Assembly (NCBI RefSeq): GCF_014217565.1 | Contig: NZ_CP043661.1 | Coordinates: forward strand, 6,324,001 to 6,388,000 | Reading direction: 5' to 3' | DNA length: 64,000 bases | From: Kribbella qitaiheensis | Lineage (GTDB): Bacteria; Actinomycetota; Actinomycetes; Propionibacteriales; Kribbellaceae | Shown here: piece by piece, positions 2,557 through 9,882 of the stretch | Position numbering within the stretch: position 1 is the stretch's first letter | How the letters are laid out: each line of letters starts with the position of its first letter | The notes under the pieces: model-generated | Database searches by the model: none | What the model was told of the DNA's origin: nothing | What the model saw: only the letters and a program-made list of their open reading frames with translations | Program-made: the position numbers and the translations under genes

Positions 2557-3552
2557 CTACGCGTTGGCGCGGCTGGTGTTGATCTCGCCGTTCACGCCGG
2601 CGGGGAAGAAGCCGCCCTTGGTGGCCTTCTTCGGTGTCAGGTAGACGACGTTGAGGACCTGGTCGGCGCCCCGGCTGAAGGCGATGCCGTTGGCGTCGGT
2701 CGGGATGATGTTGGTCTTGCCCTTGTACGTCGTGCCCTGGTCGAGGTCGGCCTTGCCGTCGAGGCTGTCGCGGGCGTTGGAGATCGCGACAGACGGGACG
2801 TCGAGGCCGCGCGCGACGAGCGTCGTACGGATGTTGGCTGCGTGGTAGGCCTCGACCGCGAGGATGCCGGCGGCGGCCTCGAGGTAGGTCTTGTTACTGA
2901 TCAGCGGCGCTGCGCCCTTGTAGGCGGTGACGCCGACGTCTTCGAAGACGTAGGCGGCGAGGAGGAAGTTGTTCTCGTTGGCGTAGGCATCGAACTTCTG
3001 TCCGGGCTTGATCAGCCCGGCCGCGAGTGCCGCTGAGGTGAACGCGGCGTCGATGTCGATCGAGGGACGAGCCACTGCGGCAGCACCGAGAGCCTTGCGC
3101 AGGAAGCGCACGTGGGCGAGTTCGTCAGCGGCGATCTCGTCGGCGTAGGCCTTCACGATCTTGGACTGGAACTTGACCTTGCGGCCGCCCTTGACGCCGC
3201 CGGGCTTGCCCTTGCCGTAGACATCGGCTCCGGACAGGCCATAGCCCCGTACTGCGCGAAGGTAGAACTCCGCCTCGAGGTACTCCAGGTTGAGGGCGAA
3301 GTTCAGTACCGCGCCGTCGCTCGGCTTGGCGTTGTCGTGGTCTTCGTCGTGACCGAGACCGAGATCCAGACCCAGCCCCGAACCGATGGTGTCGGCATTG
3401 GCAGCGTTGAACGCGCCACCGGCGAGCAAACCGCCGCCGACCAGTCCGGCTCCGACGCCCGTGGCACCGGCGGCGCGGAGGAACTTGCGCCGATCGACGC
3501 CGTTCTCGGAACTCCGATCAATTGCGTGGCGGATGAACAGTTTGTCGAACAA
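2557..3552 (-). CDS. Ferritin-like domain protein with Tat signal
   Basis: This 331-residue protein belongs to the ferritin-like/desiccation-related group (Ferritin_2-type four-helix bundle). A twin-arginine signal ([10 protein letters not shown] followed by a Gly/Ala/Leu-rich hydrophobic stretch) predicts folded export by Tat. The di-metal site is visible as LEYLEAEFY in helix 1, DELAH in helix 2 and VEAYH in helix 4. An extended C-terminal tail after residue about 250 is not part of the bundle. I chose TTG at 3552 because GGAG sits six bases upstream, there is no ATG nearby, and the start leaves a normal Tat n-region; the frame is open further upstream. It diverges from mntH. Its metal (Fe or Mn) and substrate are unknown. 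Confidence 0.85.
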
Positions 3553-3763
3553 TTCAGACTCCAGAATCGAGCTTCCGCCAGGCCGGATGACCGGACGGGC
3601 ACAGCGAGTCGTCCCAAGAGCGGTTGCCGGCGACCAGCCATCCGGACCCATTCGGCGCCGAGGCATCACCGGATCGGTCCGAACAGCGTGTCGACCGAAC
3701 GATCTGATGACCTCACGGCTCCGAAGGGATGATGTCCGTGTTGTCGAGGGGAGAGGCTGGCGC

Positions 3764-4999
3764 ATGTATGCACCGGCTCCACTGAAGCGTCAGCTGAACC
3801 GTTCGGGGTTGCTTCTCCTCGGGCCTGCCTTTGTTGCCGCGGTTGCCTATGTCGACCCGGGCAACTTCGCTACGAACATCGCCGCCGGTACGACGTACGG
3901 CTACCTGCTGTGCTGGGTGGTGGTCGGTGCGAATCTGATGGCGGTACTGATCCAGTACTTGGCGGCCAAGGCGAGCATCGCGACTGGGCGGACGCTCCCA
4001 CAGTTGTGCCGCGAGCAGTTCAAGCGATCAACCTCTACCGGGCTGTGGGCTCAGGCCGAAGTGGTCGCGATCGCGACCGACCTGGCTGAGGTCGTCGGGG
4101 GTGCGATCGCGCTGAACCTGCTGTTCAGGATCCCGCTCCTGCTCGGTGGGGCTGTCACCGGAGCGGTGTCGTTCGCCCTGTTGATGTACCAGTCCAAGCG
4201 GGGTCAGCGCCCGTTCGAGGCGGCGATCGTGGGACTTCTGGCGGTCGTGCTGATCGGGTTCGTTGTGTCGACGGTGCAGTCTCACCCGTCGGGCTCGGCC
4301 GTGATCGGCGGTCTCGTACCCAGGTTGGACGGAACCGATTCCCTGGTGCTGGCGGCAGGCATGCTCGGCGCGACTGTGATGCCTCACGCGATCTGGCTGC
4401 ACGGTGCGCTCGTCACGGAGCGGCATGGCAAGACGCTGCGATCGGTGGTCGGCAAGCTGCAGGTTCTGAAGGCCACTCGGCTGGATGTCGGGATCGCGAT
4501 GGCGCTGGCCGGTGCGGTGAACCTTGCCATGGTGGTGGTCGCGGCTGCTGCGCTCAGGGGGACTGGAGCAGACACTCTTGACGCGGCGTACCACGCCTTT
4601 GGCGACAACCTCGGCCGGATGCCGGCGTTGTTGTTCGCCCTCGCGTTGCTAGCGTCCGGTTTCGCATCGTCGTCGGTCGGGACGTACGCCGGGTCGGTGA
4701 TCCTGGACGGCTTCTGGCGCAAGCACATCCCGCTGGCCGTTCGGCGCTCGATCACCTTGCTCCCTGCTTTGGTGATCCTTGCCCTAGGCATTGATCCGAC
4801 ACGTGCTCTGGTGGTCTCGCAGGTGGTGCTGAGCTTCGGGATTCCGTGCGCGTTGTGGCCGCTGGTCCGGCTCACCGCGTCGCGCCGGGTGATGGGAGAG
4901 TTCGTCAACCGTTGGCAGACCACCGCTGCGGCCTGCCTGGTAGCGGCCGCGATCACCACGCTGAACGTAGTATTGATCGTCCTTACTCTCCGCGGCTGA
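3764..4999 (+). CDS. mntH: Nramp-family divalent metal (Mn/Fe) transporter
   Basis: The product is a 411-residue proton-coupled divalent metal transporter of the inner membrane, close to the usual bacterial MntH length. The Nramp signature DPGN is at residues 31-34 in TM1 and the TM6 metal-binding Met-Pro-His motif is in [12 protein letters not shown]. About eleven hydrophobic segments are visible. ATG 3764 is chosen because the GGGGAGAGG purine tract lies just upstream and the protein starts directly before TM1. It is divergent from one ferritin-like gene and convergent with two others, which suggests that metal uptake supplies the neighbouring ferritin-like proteins; that link is an inference. 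Confidence 0.92.
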
Positions 5000-5044
5000 G
5001 GTACCTGCGGCGACAAGGTCAGAGCCAGGCAACGAACCGTGACA

Positions 5045-5090
5045 CGCAGAGTGGGCCGGTCCTCCCCCTGGGAGACCGGCCCACTCTGCG
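5045..5090. terminator. Bidirectional terminator, 17-bp perfect stem
   Basis: Arms 5045-5061 and 5074-5090 are perfectly complementary with a 12-base loop. The hairpin sits between the convergent ends of mntH (stop at 4999) and the ferritin-like gene ending at 5097, so it can serve both transcripts. Confidence 0.85.
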
Positions 5091-5096
5091 AATGAA

Positions 5097-5726
5097 TCAG
5101 TAGGTGATCGCGGCAACCACCTTGCCCGGGTCGACGAGGAAGGGTGCGACCGCCTTCAGTACGTCGCCCTTCGCGATGCCCTTCTCGAACGGCCCCTGGT
5201 AGACGCCGCCCTCGGCCTTCAGCCCGAGCAGGTTGCCGACGACCGCGGCGTGCCTGGCCTCGACCCCGAAGATGCCGGCCGCTGCCTGAAGGATCATCTT
5301 GTCCTTCACGAAGCCGGCCGCACCGAGATAGGCGCCGACCCCCTTGTTCTCGAAGATGTGCGCGGTGGTGAGGTAGCTCTTGCGGCTCTCGAAGGCGCCA
5401 CCGAAGTCCACCGCCGGTGCGCCGACCGGCGTACCGCCGAGCTTCTGGATCGTTGCCGTCAAGGTCGCCACGTGCGACGCCTCGTCGGCACCGATCTGCA
5501 TCAGGTACTTCTTCTCCTTGCCGGAGACGAGGTTCGCCTTGTTGCCCTGGCGATAGAACTCGGCCTCCAGATATTCCAGCGTCAACGCATAGTTCAGTAC
5601 GTCGATGTCGCTGCCGAAGTCCTTGGCGCTGGCCAGGTGAAAGCCGTTGTTCAAGGCACCCAAGGCTACGCCGGCCGGGACCGCGGAAGCATTGGCGTGG
5701 ATCAGATCACGGGTCGTGTCAGTCAT
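5097..5726 (-). CDS. Ferritin-like protein without an export signal
   Basis: A 209-residue ferritin-like protein of the same family as its neighbours. The bundle carries [14 protein letters not shown] and VEARH, the expected Glu and ExxH ligands of a dinuclear metal site. Unlike the other two ferritin-like proteins here, its N-terminus (MTDTTRDLIHANAS) has no twin arginines and no signal peptide, although residues 17-30 are mildly hydrophobic. It is the last gene of a sortase-ferritin-ferritin operon, 12 bases after the upstream ferritin gene, with a GAGGAGG ribosome site. It may stay in the cytoplasm or leave the cell bound to a Tat-signal partner; the sequence does not decide this. Confidence 0.85.
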   Translation of the reverse strand: MTDTTRDLIHANASAVPAGVALGALNNGFHLASAKDFGSDIDVLNYALTLEYLEAEFYRQGNKANLVSGKEKKYLMQIGADEASHVATLTATIQKLGGTPVGAPAVDFGGAFESRKSYLTTAHIFENKGVGAYLGAAGFVKDKMILQAAAGIFGVEARHAAVVGNLLGLKAEGGVYQGPFEKGIAKGDVLKAVAPFLVDPGKVVAAITY

Positions 5727-5738
5727 CGAACTCCTCCT

Positions 5739-6401
5739 CTACTTCGCGATGAACGGCATGGCGGCCTGGAGTACCGGCCCCATCGCCAGATGGGCTTCGA
5801 TCGGTGCCGGGAACGGGTTCCCGCCGGTGATCTGGGCGATGATCGCGGCGTGCCGCGACTCCACCCCGGCGATAGACGCGGCGGCACCGAGCAGGTCAGG
5901 GCTCTTCACCAGCGGCACCTGACCGTGGTACGCCTTCACACCGAGCTCCTCGAAGACGCCCGCGGTCTTCAGGAACGAGGCCCGGCTGGCGAACGTACCG
6001 GCCGGGAACTTGACCTTCGGCTGCGCGACGGGCTTGCCGCCGAGCTGGACGATGGTGGACCGGACCACGTTCACGTGATCGGCTTCGTGCTGCTGGATCG
6101 GATCGACCAGGTCCAGGTCGCGACCCTTCAGCAGCTTCGCCTTCAATCCAGCGGTGTAGAACGCGGACTCCAGATATTCCAGGGTCAGCGCGTAGTTGAG
6201 GATGTCCAGATCGCTGGCATTGGCGTCGTTCTTGGCGAAGCCGCGGTCCGCGGTGCCGAACGCGACCGGGTCACCGGCGCGGGTCGCGACGTACGTCACA
6301 CCCACGCCGATCAGAGCCGCGTTGCGCAGGAAACTCCGCCGGCTGTGCTCGTCGGCGAATTCGAGGACCGGACGGCCTCCGAAGATTGTCTTGATACCCA
6401 T
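5739..6401 (-). CDS. Ferritin-like domain protein with Tat signal
   Basis: A 220-residue ferritin-like protein. A twin-arginine motif (SRRSFLRN, about residues 20-27) precedes a hydrophobic stretch, predicting Tat export. Di-metal ligands appear in LEYLESAFY, HEADH and VESRH. It lies 21 bases downstream of the sortase gene with a good AAGGAG ribosome site, and 12 bases upstream of the signal-less ferritin-like gene, so the three are very likely co-transcribed. Sequence similarity to the next gene (shared DILNYALTLEYLE and GVExRHAA motifs) suggests tandem duplication. Confidence 0.87.
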   Translation of the reverse strand: MGIKTIFGGRPVLEFADEHSRRSFLRNAALIGVGVTYVATRAGDPVAFGTADRGFAKNDANASDLDILNYALTLEYLESAFYTAGLKAKLLKGRDLDLVDPIQQHEADHVNVVRSTIVQLGGKPVAQPKVKFPAGTFASRASFLKTAGVFEELGVKAYHGQVPLVKSPDLLGAAASIAGVESRHAAIIAQITGGNPFPAPIEAHLAMGPVLQAAMPFIAK

Positions 6402-6422
6402 GAACTCTCCTTGAGTGAACGC

Positions 6423-7148
6423 TCAGACAGCGCGCGCCTCGACGACGATGCGCTGGAAATGAGCGGTGATGGGGTTGCAGGCGAACAGGGTGATCACCTT
6501 GTCGCCCGATTTGGTGGGCTGGCGGAGGACGAACTTCACGTACTCCGCCTGCGGCACGATGGTGGTCTTGAAGACCTTGTACGTCGTGCTCTTCGCGCCA
6601 ACGGTCACCTTGATCGGGTCACCGGCGCGAAGCCTGTCGAGGTAGAGGAAAGGTTTCTCGTTCGTACTGCGATGACCGCTGATCACGCTGTTGCCAGGAC
6701 CACCCGGCAGCGGCGTACCGGGCCAGTGACCGACTCCGTGAACCAGCGCGGCCTCGTCGACCCCGTTGTTCAGCTGCTGATCCACACCCAGCTTGGGAAT
6801 CGCCAGCCGGCCGAGTTTGAGTTGCTCGCCGGGCTTGGCCTTGATCGCCTCGATCGGCACCCCGGCCGCCGGATTACCCTCACCCGGCGCGAACTGCGAC
6901 TCGACCGGCTTGCCGTTGCGGATCTGGTCGAGCATCCGGTTCACCAGGGCGTCGGGCTCGGCCGCCTCAGACTCGCCCGCGGCAGGCTCGGATACCTTGC
7001 CTGGCGGAGTTCCCACGGTTGGTGCCGCGCCTACTTGGTCGCCGTCCGGGCCGAACACGACGACACCCACCGCGACCAGGGCTACGAAGCCGATACTCGC
7101 AGCCAGCCACCGATACAGCGGTTTCCAGGACTTCATACTGCCGACCAT
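6423..7148 (-). CDS. Class E sortase
   Basis: Sortases are cell-surface Cys transpeptidases that attach proteins to the wall or process surface proteins. The 241-residue product has an N-terminal membrane anchor (about residues 12-32), a Pro/Glu-rich linker and a sortase domain with LAIPKLGVDQ, the catalytic His in ISGHRST, the catalytic Cys in TLFACNP and the Arg in FQRIVVEA. The usual TLTTC strand is here TLFAC. Either ATG 7148 or ATG 7136 could be the start; both follow GGTGAGGAG. It heads the operon with two ferritin-like genes and diverges from the tat cluster. None of the neighbours has an LPxTG-type tail, so its substrate is elsewhere or unconventional. Confidence 0.85.
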   Translation of the reverse strand: MVGSMKSWKPLYRWLAASIGFVALVAVGVVVFGPDGDQVGAAPTVGTPPGKVSEPAAGESEAAEPDALVNRMLDQIRNGKPVESQFAPGEGNPAAGVPIEAIKAKPGEQLKLGRLAIPKLGVDQQLNNGVDEAALVHGVGHWPGTPLPGGPGNSVISGHRSTNEKPFLYLDRLRAGDPIKVTVGAKSTTYKVFKTTIVPQAEYVKFVLRQPTKSGDKVITLFACNPITAHFQRIVVEARAV

Positions 7149-7298
7149 CTCCTCACCGCGCTGTTGATCAGCAGGCCTTCGGAGGCCTCGCGCCGGCGGA
7201 TGGCTGACGCGGCAGAGAAATTGGCAGAGAGGGGCTGACCCATCTCTGGGGTGGGTGGCTCCGAAGACCGTGTTGTCAATCAAGGAACAGGAGATGTC

Positions 7299-7550
7299 AT
7301 GGTTCCCGAACTCGGTATGCCTCAGGGCGCGGAGTGGCTCGTCATCCTCGCGATCGTGGTTTTGCTTTTCGGCTCGGCCAAGCTGCCGGCGTTGGTCAAG
7401 CAGCTCGGCAAGTCGAAGAAGATCTGGGAAGACGAGATCGGCTCCCACAGCAAGAAGACAGGCGGTGAGCTCGGCGAAGAAGCGGACCCGGCGGAGCGCA
7501 GTACGAAACTCTTCAGCTCGGCCGACTCTCAGTCAGACCATCGCAGCTAA
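7299..7550 (+). CDS. tatA: Twin-arginine translocase subunit TatA
   Basis: An 83-residue TatA/Hcf106-type protein: one N-terminal transmembrane helix (WLVILAIVVLLFG), the FG-x-x-KLP hinge (FGSAKLP), then an amphipathic helix and a charged, acidic tail. It forms the pore-forming oligomer of the Tat system for folded proteins. ATG 7299 is preferred over upstream codons because AGGAG lies eight bases before it and the protein then begins directly before the membrane helix. tatC starts 6 bases after its stop, so they form an operon. Confidence 0.88.
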   Translation: MVPELGMPQGAEWLVILAIVVLLFGSAKLPALVKQLGKSKKIWEDEIGSHSKKTGGELGEEADPAERSTKLFSSADSQSDHRS

Positions 7551-7556
7551 GACCTG

Positions 7557-8354
7557 ATGAGCGTCGAACAACTCAACTCCGTGGAGGAATCCGGAGCCGG
7601 GAGGATGACCCTGCGTGAGCACATCATCGAGCTCCGGAACCGGTTGCTCATCAGTGTGCTCGCCATCGTCGTGTGCACCGTCGGCGCCTGGTTCATCTAT
7701 CACCGGGCCTTCATCTTCCTGACCGATCCGTTCTACGAGAGCGTCCGGCAGCTGAATCCTGGGGCCGGTGAGACCAAGCCGATCCTGACTTTGGCGGGGG
7801 TCGGCGATGCGTTGACGTTCCAGATCAAGGTGTCGGCGTTGATCGGTCTGGTGTTGTCGGGGCCGATCTGGCTTTATCAGTTGTGGGCGTTCATCGCGCC
7901 TGGGTTGCATCGGAGTGAGAAGAAGTGGGCGATCCTGTTCGCGGCGATCGCCGCGCCGTTGTTCGCCGGCGGGATGGCGGTCGCGTACTGGACGCTGCCG
8001 AAGGGCATCGCGATTCTGATCAGCTTCACTCCGGATGCGGTGCAGAACCTGGTTGAGGTGCCGCATTATCTGGATTTCGTGATCCGGACGATGCTGGTGT
8101 TCGGGATCGCGTTTTTGATCCCGTTGGTGGTGGTTTTGCTGAATATGGTCGGGTTGGTGCCGGCGTCGGCGTTGAGTAAGTTCCGGCCGTACATCATCTT
8201 GGTGATTTTCGTTTTCGCCGCGGTCGCGACTCCGTCTGGTGATCCGTTCACGATGTGTCTGCTGGCTATTCCGATGTGCCTGCTGTTCTTTGTCGCCGAG
8301 GTGATCTGCCGGATCAACGACAGGCGCCGCTCGCGCAAGACCGAGGAGGTCTGA
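7557..8354 (+). CDS. tatC: Twin-arginine translocase subunit TatC
   Basis: A 265-residue six-TM protein that recognises twin-arginine signals. The N-terminal MTLREHIIELRNRL matches the conserved cytoplasmic amphipathic helix, and APGLHRSEKKW matches the first cytoplasmic loop with its conserved Glu, both part of the signal-binding site. It lies between tatA and tatB with spacings of 6 and 3 bases. Known Tat substrates in the window are the adjacent ferritin-like proteins with RR signals. Confidence 0.92.
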   Translation: MSVEQLNSVEESGAGRMTLREHIIELRNRLLISVLAIVVCTVGAWFIYHRAFIFLTDPFYESVRQLNPGAGETKPILTLAGVGDALTFQIKVSALIGLVLSGPIWLYQLWAFIAPGLHRSEKKWAILFAAIAAPLFAGGMAVAYWTLPKGIAILISFTPDAVQNLVEVPHYLDFVIRTMLVFGIAFLIPLVVVLLNMVGLVPASALSKFRPYIILVIFVFAAVATPSGDPFTMCLLAIPMCLLFFVAEVICRINDRRRSRKTEEV

Positions 8355-8357
8355 ACC

Positions 8358-8675
8358 GTGCTCGACATCGGTCTTCCCGAAATGCTGGTGATCGCAGTGA
8401 TCGCGATAGTTGTCCTTGGCCCCGACCGGTTGCCCGAGTTCGTCCGTACTGCGGCCCGCTTGCTGAACCAGGTGCGCGGTATGGCCGCCAACGCGCAGAA
8501 GGATCTGCGCGACGAACTAGGGCCGGAGTTCGCCGACCTCGACGTCCGCGAACTCAACCCCCGAACCTTCATCCGCAAGCATCTGCTGGAAGGGACGGAG
8601 CGTGAGGCCACGGCCGACGCAGTAAGGAAAACGACTCCGACGTTCCCGTCGCCCTACGACCACGAAGCAACCTGA
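8358..8675 (+). CDS. tatB: Twin-arginine translocase subunit TatB
   Basis: A 105-residue TatB-like protein: a short N-terminus with Glu in GLPEML, a single TM helix, the Gly-Pro hinge in VVLGPDRLPEF, then a long amphipathic helix containing RLLNQVRGMAANAQKDLR, and a charged tail. The longer amphipathic region and LGPDRLP distinguish it from the TatA upstream. The start is GTG 8358, three bases after tatC, with GAGGAGGT inside the tatC end. It completes a tatA-tatC-tatB operon. Confidence 0.85.
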   Translation: MLDIGLPEMLVIAVIAIVVLGPDRLPEFVRTAARLLNQVRGMAANAQKDLRDELGPEFADLDVRELNPRTFIRKHLLEGTEREATADAVRKTTPTFPSPYDHEAT

Positions 8676-9042: not shown

Positions 9043-9882
9043 TCAGGCCGCTGGGGACAACGCTGCCAGCTGTTCGCGCAGGTCGGCGAGAAGTTTGGTC
9101 AGCAGCCGCGAGACCTGCATCTGGCTGACGCCGATGTCTTTGCCGATGTCGGCTTGGGTCCAGCCCTCGATGAACCGCAGTTCGAGCAGCCGCCGGTCGC
9201 GGGGAGCCAGATCCTCGAGGAGCGGGTTGAGCATGTCTACCGCCTCCAACTGCTCGACATAGGAGTCGTCGGTGGCGCGGAGGGTGTCGCTCAACGGCAA
9301 CTCTTCTCCGCCTTCGTGGTAGCCGTTGGGGCGATCCAGGGACAGCACGTTGAAACACCCCCGGGCGGCCAGTGCCTGCTCGACCTCGGCGACCGGGACA
9401 TTGGTCCGTCCCGCGATCTCTTCATGGCTGGGTTCTCGGCCTAATTCCTGTTCCAGCGCCGGCAGCGCGGCGGCGATTGTTCCCTGCAGTTCCTGAAGCC
9501 GGCGCGGGATCCGCACAGTCCAGCTGCAATCGCGGAAGTAGCGTTTGATCTCGCCGCGGATTGTGGGGACGGCGAACCCTATGAACGGGGTGCCATCGTC
9601 AAGACGAAAGCCGCGCACGGCTTTCAGTAACCCGAGGTAGGCGACCTGTTCCAGATCGTCGTCTTCGGGGCCCCGGTTGCGGAACCGCCGCGCGATCCCG
9701 CGGGCGATTTCGATGTTCAGTTCCACAGCTTGCTCGAGCAGGCGCTGACGCTGCGTCTCGTCCGTACAGTCGACTCTGGCTTGCAGTAGCTGTCTGGTCG
9801 CGGCTTCGCGGCGGGCCCGGTCTTGCGGGGACGAGCAGTTGAGCGGGATCTGCTGGAGGCTGGTGATCTCGGTAATAACCAT
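9043..9882 (-). CDS. SigB/SigF-family stress sigma factor
   Basis: A 279-residue alternative sigma factor. Region 2 is seen in LVQALnLEIARGIARRF-like helices with EDDDLEQVAYLGLLKAV and GTPFIGFAVPTIRGEIKRYF; region 3 includes VRIPRRLQEL; region 4 is the HTH around EGWTQADIGKDIGVSQMQVS followed by RLLTKLL. This pattern is that of the group 3 SigB/SigF/SigG type used in actinobacteria for stress and development, normally controlled by an anti-sigma factor. No anti-sigma gene is adjacent; a STAS-like protein lies 17 kb away. The start at ATG 9882 gives the usual length. Confidence 0.88.
   Translation of the reverse strand: MVITEITSLQQIPLNCSSPQDRARREAATRQLLQARVDCTDETQRQRLLEQAVELNIEIARGIARRFRNRGPEDDDLEQVAYLGLLKAVRGFRLDDGTPFIGFAVPTIRGEIKRYFRDCSWTVRIPRRLQELQGTIAAALPALEQELGREPSHEEIAGRTNVPVAEVEQALAARGCFNVLSLDRPNGYHEGGEELPLSDTLRATDDSYVEQLEAVDMLNPLLEDLAPRDRRLLELRFIEGWTQADIGKDIGVSQMQVSRLLTKLLADLREQLAALSPAA

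Follow-up and report, generated by a model that had tools for sequence, protein, structure and literature searches.

A candidate accessory Tat export locus for paired PF13668 ferritin-fold proteins in Kribbella qitaiheensis, and the wider linkage of PF13668 and tat genes

Why should a bacterium carry additional genes for the twin-arginine translocation (Tat) pathway, which exports folded proteins, directly beside genes for ferritin-like proteins? The question is raised by a locus in a 64-kb window (the whole stretch of DNA analysed) from the complete 8.16 Mb genome of the soil actinobacterium Kribbella qitaiheensis. An earlier note on this DNA had described there an Nramp transporter (MntH), three ferritin-like proteins (here Fer1, Fer2 and Fer3), a sortase and a tatA-tatC-tatB set, and all of these genes are indeed present at that place, with matches above the Pfam cut-offs. 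Our preferred reading, held with moderate confidence, is of an accessory Tat export module linked to its substrate, a pair of ferritin-fold metalloproteins of family PF13668.

The core of the locus consists of two gene groups that point in opposite directions out of one shared intergenic region of 162 bp (7137-7298), shown by alignment to be conserved in three other Kribbella genomes, G027, G024 and G004 (G and L numbers are our handles for genomes and loci). On the reverse strand lie srtE (6423-7136; PF04203), fer3 (5739-6401), which is the first gene of a conserved fer3-fer2 pair, and fer2 (5097-5726). The forward strand carries tatA2 (7299-7550; PF02416), tatC2 (7557-8354; PF00902) and tatB2 (8358-8675; PF02416, with NF002377 also above its cut-off), the suffix marking the linked copies. 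All three tat genes are intact, TatA scoring below its NCBIfam cut-off and above the Pfam one. Gene starts were corrected relative to the open reading frame coordinates by alignment with other Kribbella species; those coordinates were too long for Fer1, MntH, the sortase and TatA, for which the refined starts are 3552 (TTG), 3764, 7136 and 7299, respectively.

The association of PF13668 with tat genes extends far beyond this strain. A scan of public genomes yielded 80 loci, in nearly all of which a second PF13668 gene adjoins the first, and the fer2-fer3 pair is conserved across Actinomycetota and Dormibacterota. Tat genes are close by in 13 of the 76 loci outside Kribbella; in L088, for example, the order on a single strand is srtE-fer3-fer2-tatA-tatB-tatC, and other contiguous, operon-like orders occur in L104, L113, L131, L140 and L148. 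Since these loci had been chosen by similarity, the linkage was retested on 396 evenly drawn genomes of Actinomycetota, with the window genome excluded from the test (G235 and G265 belong to both sets and should not be counted twice). PF13668 was present in 53 of the 396. A tatC gene occurred within 3 kb of a PF13668 gene in 8 of 52 genomes, against 0.21 expected under random placement (p 3.5e-11), and a tat gene of any kind in 11 of 52, against 0.51 expected on the same model (p 2.5e-12); related genomes are not fully independent in this test, while the seven GTDB families to which the 11 belong are. Additional tat genes that adjoin a Tat-signalled gene more often than chance allows are the mark of a substrate-linked Tat arrangement, and the link between PF13668 and tat is real. 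The earlier claim that ferritin-like and tat genes form a unit is in this respect upheld well outside the genus.

The same even draw shows an excess of second TatC genes, since two were found in 7 of 53 ferritin-positive genomes and in 7 of 343 ferritin-negative ones (Fisher p 0.0009). A published survey of TatC found more than one tatC gene to be rare outside Bacilli (~2%) and explained such cases, actinobacteria included, by duplication (PMC3827258). That survey names no ferritin; here the second TatC lies beside a PF13668 gene in half of the 14 two-TatC genomes, that is, in all seven of the ferritin-positive ones. In the TatC tree the linked protein is sister, with strong support, to the other TatC of its own genome in G059, G060, G061, G063, G151, G184 and G461, and in the window genome the two are identical over the compared domain. 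G065 is an exception to this pattern and the tree does not settle the placement of G062. A single ancestral clade of ferritin-type TatC was rejected, as the linked proteins do not group as one. To judge from these sequences, either duplication has brought tat genes to ferritin loci on many occasions or they are repeatedly reset by gene conversion. As a separate observation, in L174 and L175 (G424 and G451; family f76) it is the genome's sole tatC that lies divergent from the ferritin pair.

These data bear directly on the notion that there is no functional link at all, that accident or shared horizontal transfer has brought the genes together and that the housekeeping Tat system alone exports the ferritin-like proteins. 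Such a notion could draw on the patchy distribution within the genus, where 14 of 38 Kribbella genomes have PF13668, on an orphan Tat set in G020 and on the presence of a complete housekeeping Tat, but linkage in seven families with differing gene orders and TatC origins is left unexplained by the joint spread of a single cluster, and we regard the notion as highly improbable. Because the pairing arose repeatedly in distantly related bacteria, it is probable that the Tat machine acts in concert with its likely cargo.

How far the linked Tat proteins differ from the housekeeping ones can be assessed in the window genome itself, where a second complete set is encoded in two places, tatA-tatC lying at 1.77 Mb and tatB at 2.55 Mb. 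The window tatC agrees with the housekeeping gene at 742 of 743 bases over a tract (7603-8345) that starts at codon 16 and ends shortly ahead of the stop codon. Its first 15 codons (7557-7602; MSVEQLNSVEESGAG), in contrast, differ from the N-terminus of the housekeeping gene and agree with those of the G020 linked copy (MSVEQLDPVEEDAG). This combination of a near-identical body with a locus-specific beginning leads us to conclude that gene conversion, with the housekeeping tatC as donor, has replaced the body of the window gene. Separate insertion of the housekeeping gene into the locus was considered and set aside, the N-terminal codons being common to the linked copy of G020. Concerted patterns are also seen in G024, whose two tatC copies share 87% identity where comparison between species gives 83%, and in G020, where the assembly breaks at all four tatC ends, as expected of two near-identical copies. 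The tatA2 gene is mixed in another manner: 147 bp of its 5' part are 95% identical to the housekeeping tatA and its 3' part is unrelated. The linked Kribbella TatB proteins form a clade of their own (support 100/100) with dN/dS values of 0.15-0.31, and constitute an old, separate lineage under selection.

The near-identity of the two tatC genes also speaks for pure dosage, according to which the additional tat genes are unspecialised duplicates that raise capacity for an abundant substrate, with no recognition of the ferritin-like proteins. The own-genome origin of linked TatCs in most lineages, and the operon-like co-orientation in L088 and others, point the same way. However, the linked TatB is a distinct clade under purifying selection, G027 and G016 retain tatA-tatB without tatC, which would be an odd way to gain capacity, and several linked ferritins bear non-canonical single-arginine or RK signals. 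Dosage therefore seems to us unlikely, if well worth keeping in mind.

Within Kribbella, the srtE-fer3-fer2 triplet is invariant at every fetched locus that has the pair, and the search for conserved gene order that the earlier note had proposed shows the order to be kept in other species, so that it is not unique to this strain. The tat part behaves differently: it is A-C-B in the window (G000), A-B in G027 and G016, A-C in G024 and A alone in G004, and several other Kribbella pairs have none, including a second fer2-fer3-srtE copy in the window genome itself (2.34 Mb). Tat is thus an optional part of the Kribbella locus. In G020 an A-C-B set orthologous to that of the window lies away from any ferritin pair (L054:1-422 and L055:1-480, with the breaks inside tatC), and no Tat substrate is evident beside it. 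Other remains were also noted. In G024 a broken tatA-tatC fragment (L053:5445-5893) lies 40 kb from the linked locus, and an mntH gene is divided between reading frames (L052:11955-12979), both being signs of decay in parts of the module. In the window genome, about 22 kb before the window (6.30 Mb; L015:6233-7422), a second fer1 and a fragment of a fer2 C-terminus are likely to be the remnant of another module copy.

Several of these observations weigh against a dedicated role for the linked Tat: the complete housekeeping set, the instability of the tat part in Kribbella, the second fer2-fer3-srtE copy lacking tat genes nearby and the G020 set remote from any ferritin pair. To these must be added the 41 of 52 ferritin-positive genomes that have no tat gene within 3 kb. 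Because of that figure and of the housekeeping Tat, the linked set is not required for export, and the earlier picture of the local set as the exporter of these proteins is not supported. Moreover, the TatC cores are virtually identical, so that any specificity would have to come from TatB2 and the terminal parts of TatA2 and TatC2.

The identity of the presumed cargo also proves to differ from what the name suggests. Fer1 (2557-3552, reverse strand; 331 amino acids from its TTG start), Fer2 and Fer3 match PF13668 only, with 157 (for the longer Fer1 frame), 148 and 150 bits, respectively, against a cut-off of 24.7, and none has a Pfam match to the ferritin, bacterioferritin or Dps families. 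The only PDB sequence matches below 0.01 are to the tardigrade protein RvFeMP-1, bacterioferritins scoring far lower as relatives, and RvFeMP-1 is likewise the top Foldseek match of the predicted models of Fer3 (E 1.5e-8) and Fer2 (E 4.7e-4). RvFeMP-1 and Deinococcus radiodurans DRB0118 have been shown to be metabolite phosphatases and linked to desiccation and UV tolerance; both are homodimers, and the FeMP family includes secreted members (PMC11616004). The Fer proteins present the metal-ligand pattern E, ExxH, E, ExxH. On alignment, the ligand positions of RvFeMP-1 helices 1, 2 and 4 (ligands as given in PMC11616004) are retained, and the position of the M2 ligand Asp135 is occupied by Gly154 in Fer3. 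Judged by their sequences and predicted models, the Fer proteins appear to have an FeMP-type fold and not to be iron-storage ferritins, the name ferritin being misleading. Since the nearest solved relatives are metabolite phosphatases, iron storage is not the default reading, and the metal-storing ferritins of the earlier account give way to PF13668 proteins related to RvFeMP-1. The likeness to FeMP proteins lies in the shared family and in the nearest solved structure, by both sequence and fold. Unlike them, Fer2 and Fer3 form an obligate-looking pair of paralogues accompanied by Tat signals and tat genes; unlike RvFeMP-1, the Fer proteins lack an IgG-like domain and, as aligned, appear to be without the M2 Asp135, and a phosphatase role is suggested by likeness only. 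The fer1 gene has dN/dS values of 0.10-0.20.

Two of the three proteins had been credited with twin-arginine (RR) signals, and these are found in Fer1 and Fer3 (SRRSFLRNAAL); Fer2 has none. The start and RR motif of fer1 are conserved in G027, G024, G004, G016 and G022, and the signal of Fer3 (SRRSFLRNAA) is likewise conserved. Fer2 orthologues, by comparison, can be arranged in a series. A complete Tat signal (MKRRDLIRGAATVIPASIALQMLGTKFAFAQ) is present in those of Pseudonocardia, Euzebyales and others; Amycolatopsis proteins often retain the RR but have lost the hydrophobic core; in Kribbella and Nakamurella the RR has gone too, the remaining signal region being still alignable. This region of Fer2 is, by its alignment, best described as a vestigial Tat signal. 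In the structure models it is folded (block pLDDT 78-89), whereas the signal region of Fer3 is mostly disordered (32-52). Five RR-less relatives of Fer2 carry at the C-terminus a membrane helix that finishes in a basic stretch, and application of the positive-inside rule places their domain outside.

Such an arrangement recalls the hitchhiker substrates of Tat, among them hydrogenase and formate dehydrogenase subunits and E. coli PaoABC, for which tail-anchored partners occur (PMC10924467, PMC4273604); signal-less, tail-anchored partners were anticipated there, beyond the reach of that paper's search (PMC10924467). As in those systems, one partner bears an RR signal and the other none, and the RR-less Fer2 is encoded directly beside the RR-bearing Fer3. 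Fer2 and Fer3 differ from known hitchhikers in being paralogues of each other, in that one signal has visibly decayed and in that their complex is a putative one. Export of Fer2 as a hitchhiker on Fer3 is the best reading for this protein, though the case for it is evenly balanced; the alternative is that Fer2 stays in the cytoplasm. A different situation is met in L168, L170 and L172 (G151, G184 and G242), where single PF13668 genes have tatA-tatC directly behind them and carry signals that depart from the canonical form in having one arginine (TTSRAAFLSRG, TRADFFRTA). This suggests that the Tat beside these genes is tuned to degenerate signals; the linked tatC of G242 is truncated.

What, then, of the transporter and the sortase? 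The mntH gene (3764-4999, forward strand; PF01566, and NF001923 at 472 bits against a cut-off of 430) encodes an Nramp Mn(2+)/Fe(2+) transporter and diverges from fer1. The region between them (3553-3763) has blocks conserved in alignment with G004 and G027 and is a probable promoter region; no match to a sigma-70-type promoter was found in it and, despite the conserved blocks, no DtxR/MntR/Fur box was recognisable by eye. In Kribbella, mntH lies beside fer genes in G000, G027, G016, G024, G004 and two loci of G003 (six species and seven loci, the window included), the other copies being 80-93% identical to that of the window, and fer1 occurs in five of the genomes with this arrangement. Outside the genus the linkage is seen at one locus only, L091, and the window genome has four Nramp genes, so that supply of manganese or iron by MntH can be suggested only weakly as a step of the module.

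The sortase had been assigned to class E. That is its best NCBIfam class, but the score of 94.8 bits falls below the class E cut-off of 160 and the nearest solved relative is annotated as class C, and class E-like seems the apt description of the sequence. It lies beside fer3 in every Kribbella pair examined, and at other loci no other neighbour accompanies the pair so often (27 of 73); yet no LAxTG-type sorting motif was seen in the inspected Kribbella Fer proteins, the C-terminal tails of Fer2 relatives holding TG-containing motifs of other kinds. A sortase step is accordingly a weak proposal. In L084, L089, L090, L094 and L100, Fer2 relatives end in a tail of TGGGS, helix and basic terminus, in some cases with a sortase-like gene just downstream, and are possible sortase substrates without LAxTG.

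The full scheme of the earlier note, in which MntH imports manganese or iron, ferritins are metallated, the local Tat exports them and the sortase anchors them or modifies the surface, can be weighed at this point. It gains from the synteny of mntH with fer genes in Kribbella and L091, from the frequency of the sortase and from the C-terminal tails of Nakamurella and Amycolatopsis Fer2 relatives, with a sortase-like gene after fer2 in many loci. Against this, mntH is not a neighbour elsewhere and is one of four Nramp genes, the Kribbella proteins show no sorting motif, no metal-regulator box was identified between fer1 and mntH, and the family is phosphatase-like, not iron-storing (PMC11616004). 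We consider the full scheme improbable.

Other neighbours are more varied. A sigma factor gene with regions 2, 3 and 4 (9043-9882) adjoins tatB on the opposite strand in the window; it is an unstable neighbour across species, with one possible further case in G003 (L061:14659-15465). Genes for ECF sigma factors (22 loci) and anti-sigma factors (13 loci) recur beside the pair, for example in L119, L121, L122, L125, L128 and L141, pointing to envelope-stress regulation. A cupredoxin lipoprotein-like gene recurs as well (L143:9375-9758 and six other loci).

The combination of genes had been thought undescribed, and in the open-access literature we found no earlier pairing of ferritin-like proteins with Tat and no account of the Kribbella locus. 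The closest known arrangement is in Bacillus subtilis, where phoD lies upstream of tatAd-tatCd and PhoD is strictly dependent on TatAdCd (PMC3068169). Like this system, and like TatAyCy with YwbN/EfeB, the Kribbella locus has an additional, substrate-linked Tat. It differs from PhoD-TatAdCd in substrate family, in having TatA, TatB and TatC in place of a minimal TatAC, in a TatC core homogenised with the housekeeping copy and in the recurrent independent origins seen in Actinomycetota.

On the reading that we favour, of an accessory export module, Fer2 and Fer3 would take up metal and fold while still in the cytoplasm, forming a heterodimer that would leave on the signal of Fer3 with Fer2 as the hitchhiker. 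The linked tatA and tatB, and tatC where present, would raise the capacity for Tat export whenever the two proteins are produced; the linked Tat would be tuned by TatB2 together with the ends of TatA2 and TatC2, and its TatC core would remain exchangeable with that of the housekeeping system. Once exported, the pair would serve as an enzyme of the FeMP type, a dinuclear-metal hydrolase or a stress enzyme, and not as an iron store; in Kribbella, MntH may supply the metal. What we infer is that the Fer proteins depend on the linked Tat, that Fer2 and Fer3 form a heterodimer and that the pair has an enzymatic role. More tentatively, we propose a general form of this mechanism, in which an exported pair of ferritin-fold hydrolases would repeatedly acquire its own Tat in Actinomycetota and Dormibacterota. 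The Kribbella Tat would then consist of two interchangeable receptor halves, one gene-converted TatC core serving two diverged TatBs, and one partner of the pair would lose its signal and become an obligate hitchhiker, tail-anchored in Nakamurella.

Tat translocases dedicated to particular substrates are chiefly known from Bacilli. The loci described here offer many independent natural cases bearing on how Tat gains substrate preference, including one whose two systems have virtually one and the same TatC, which would leave TatB, TatA or a short N-terminus as the seat of any preference. The series from full to lost Tat signal in one partner makes hitchhiker export testable, and PF13668, a poorly understood family of stress proteins, is tied to the cell envelope.

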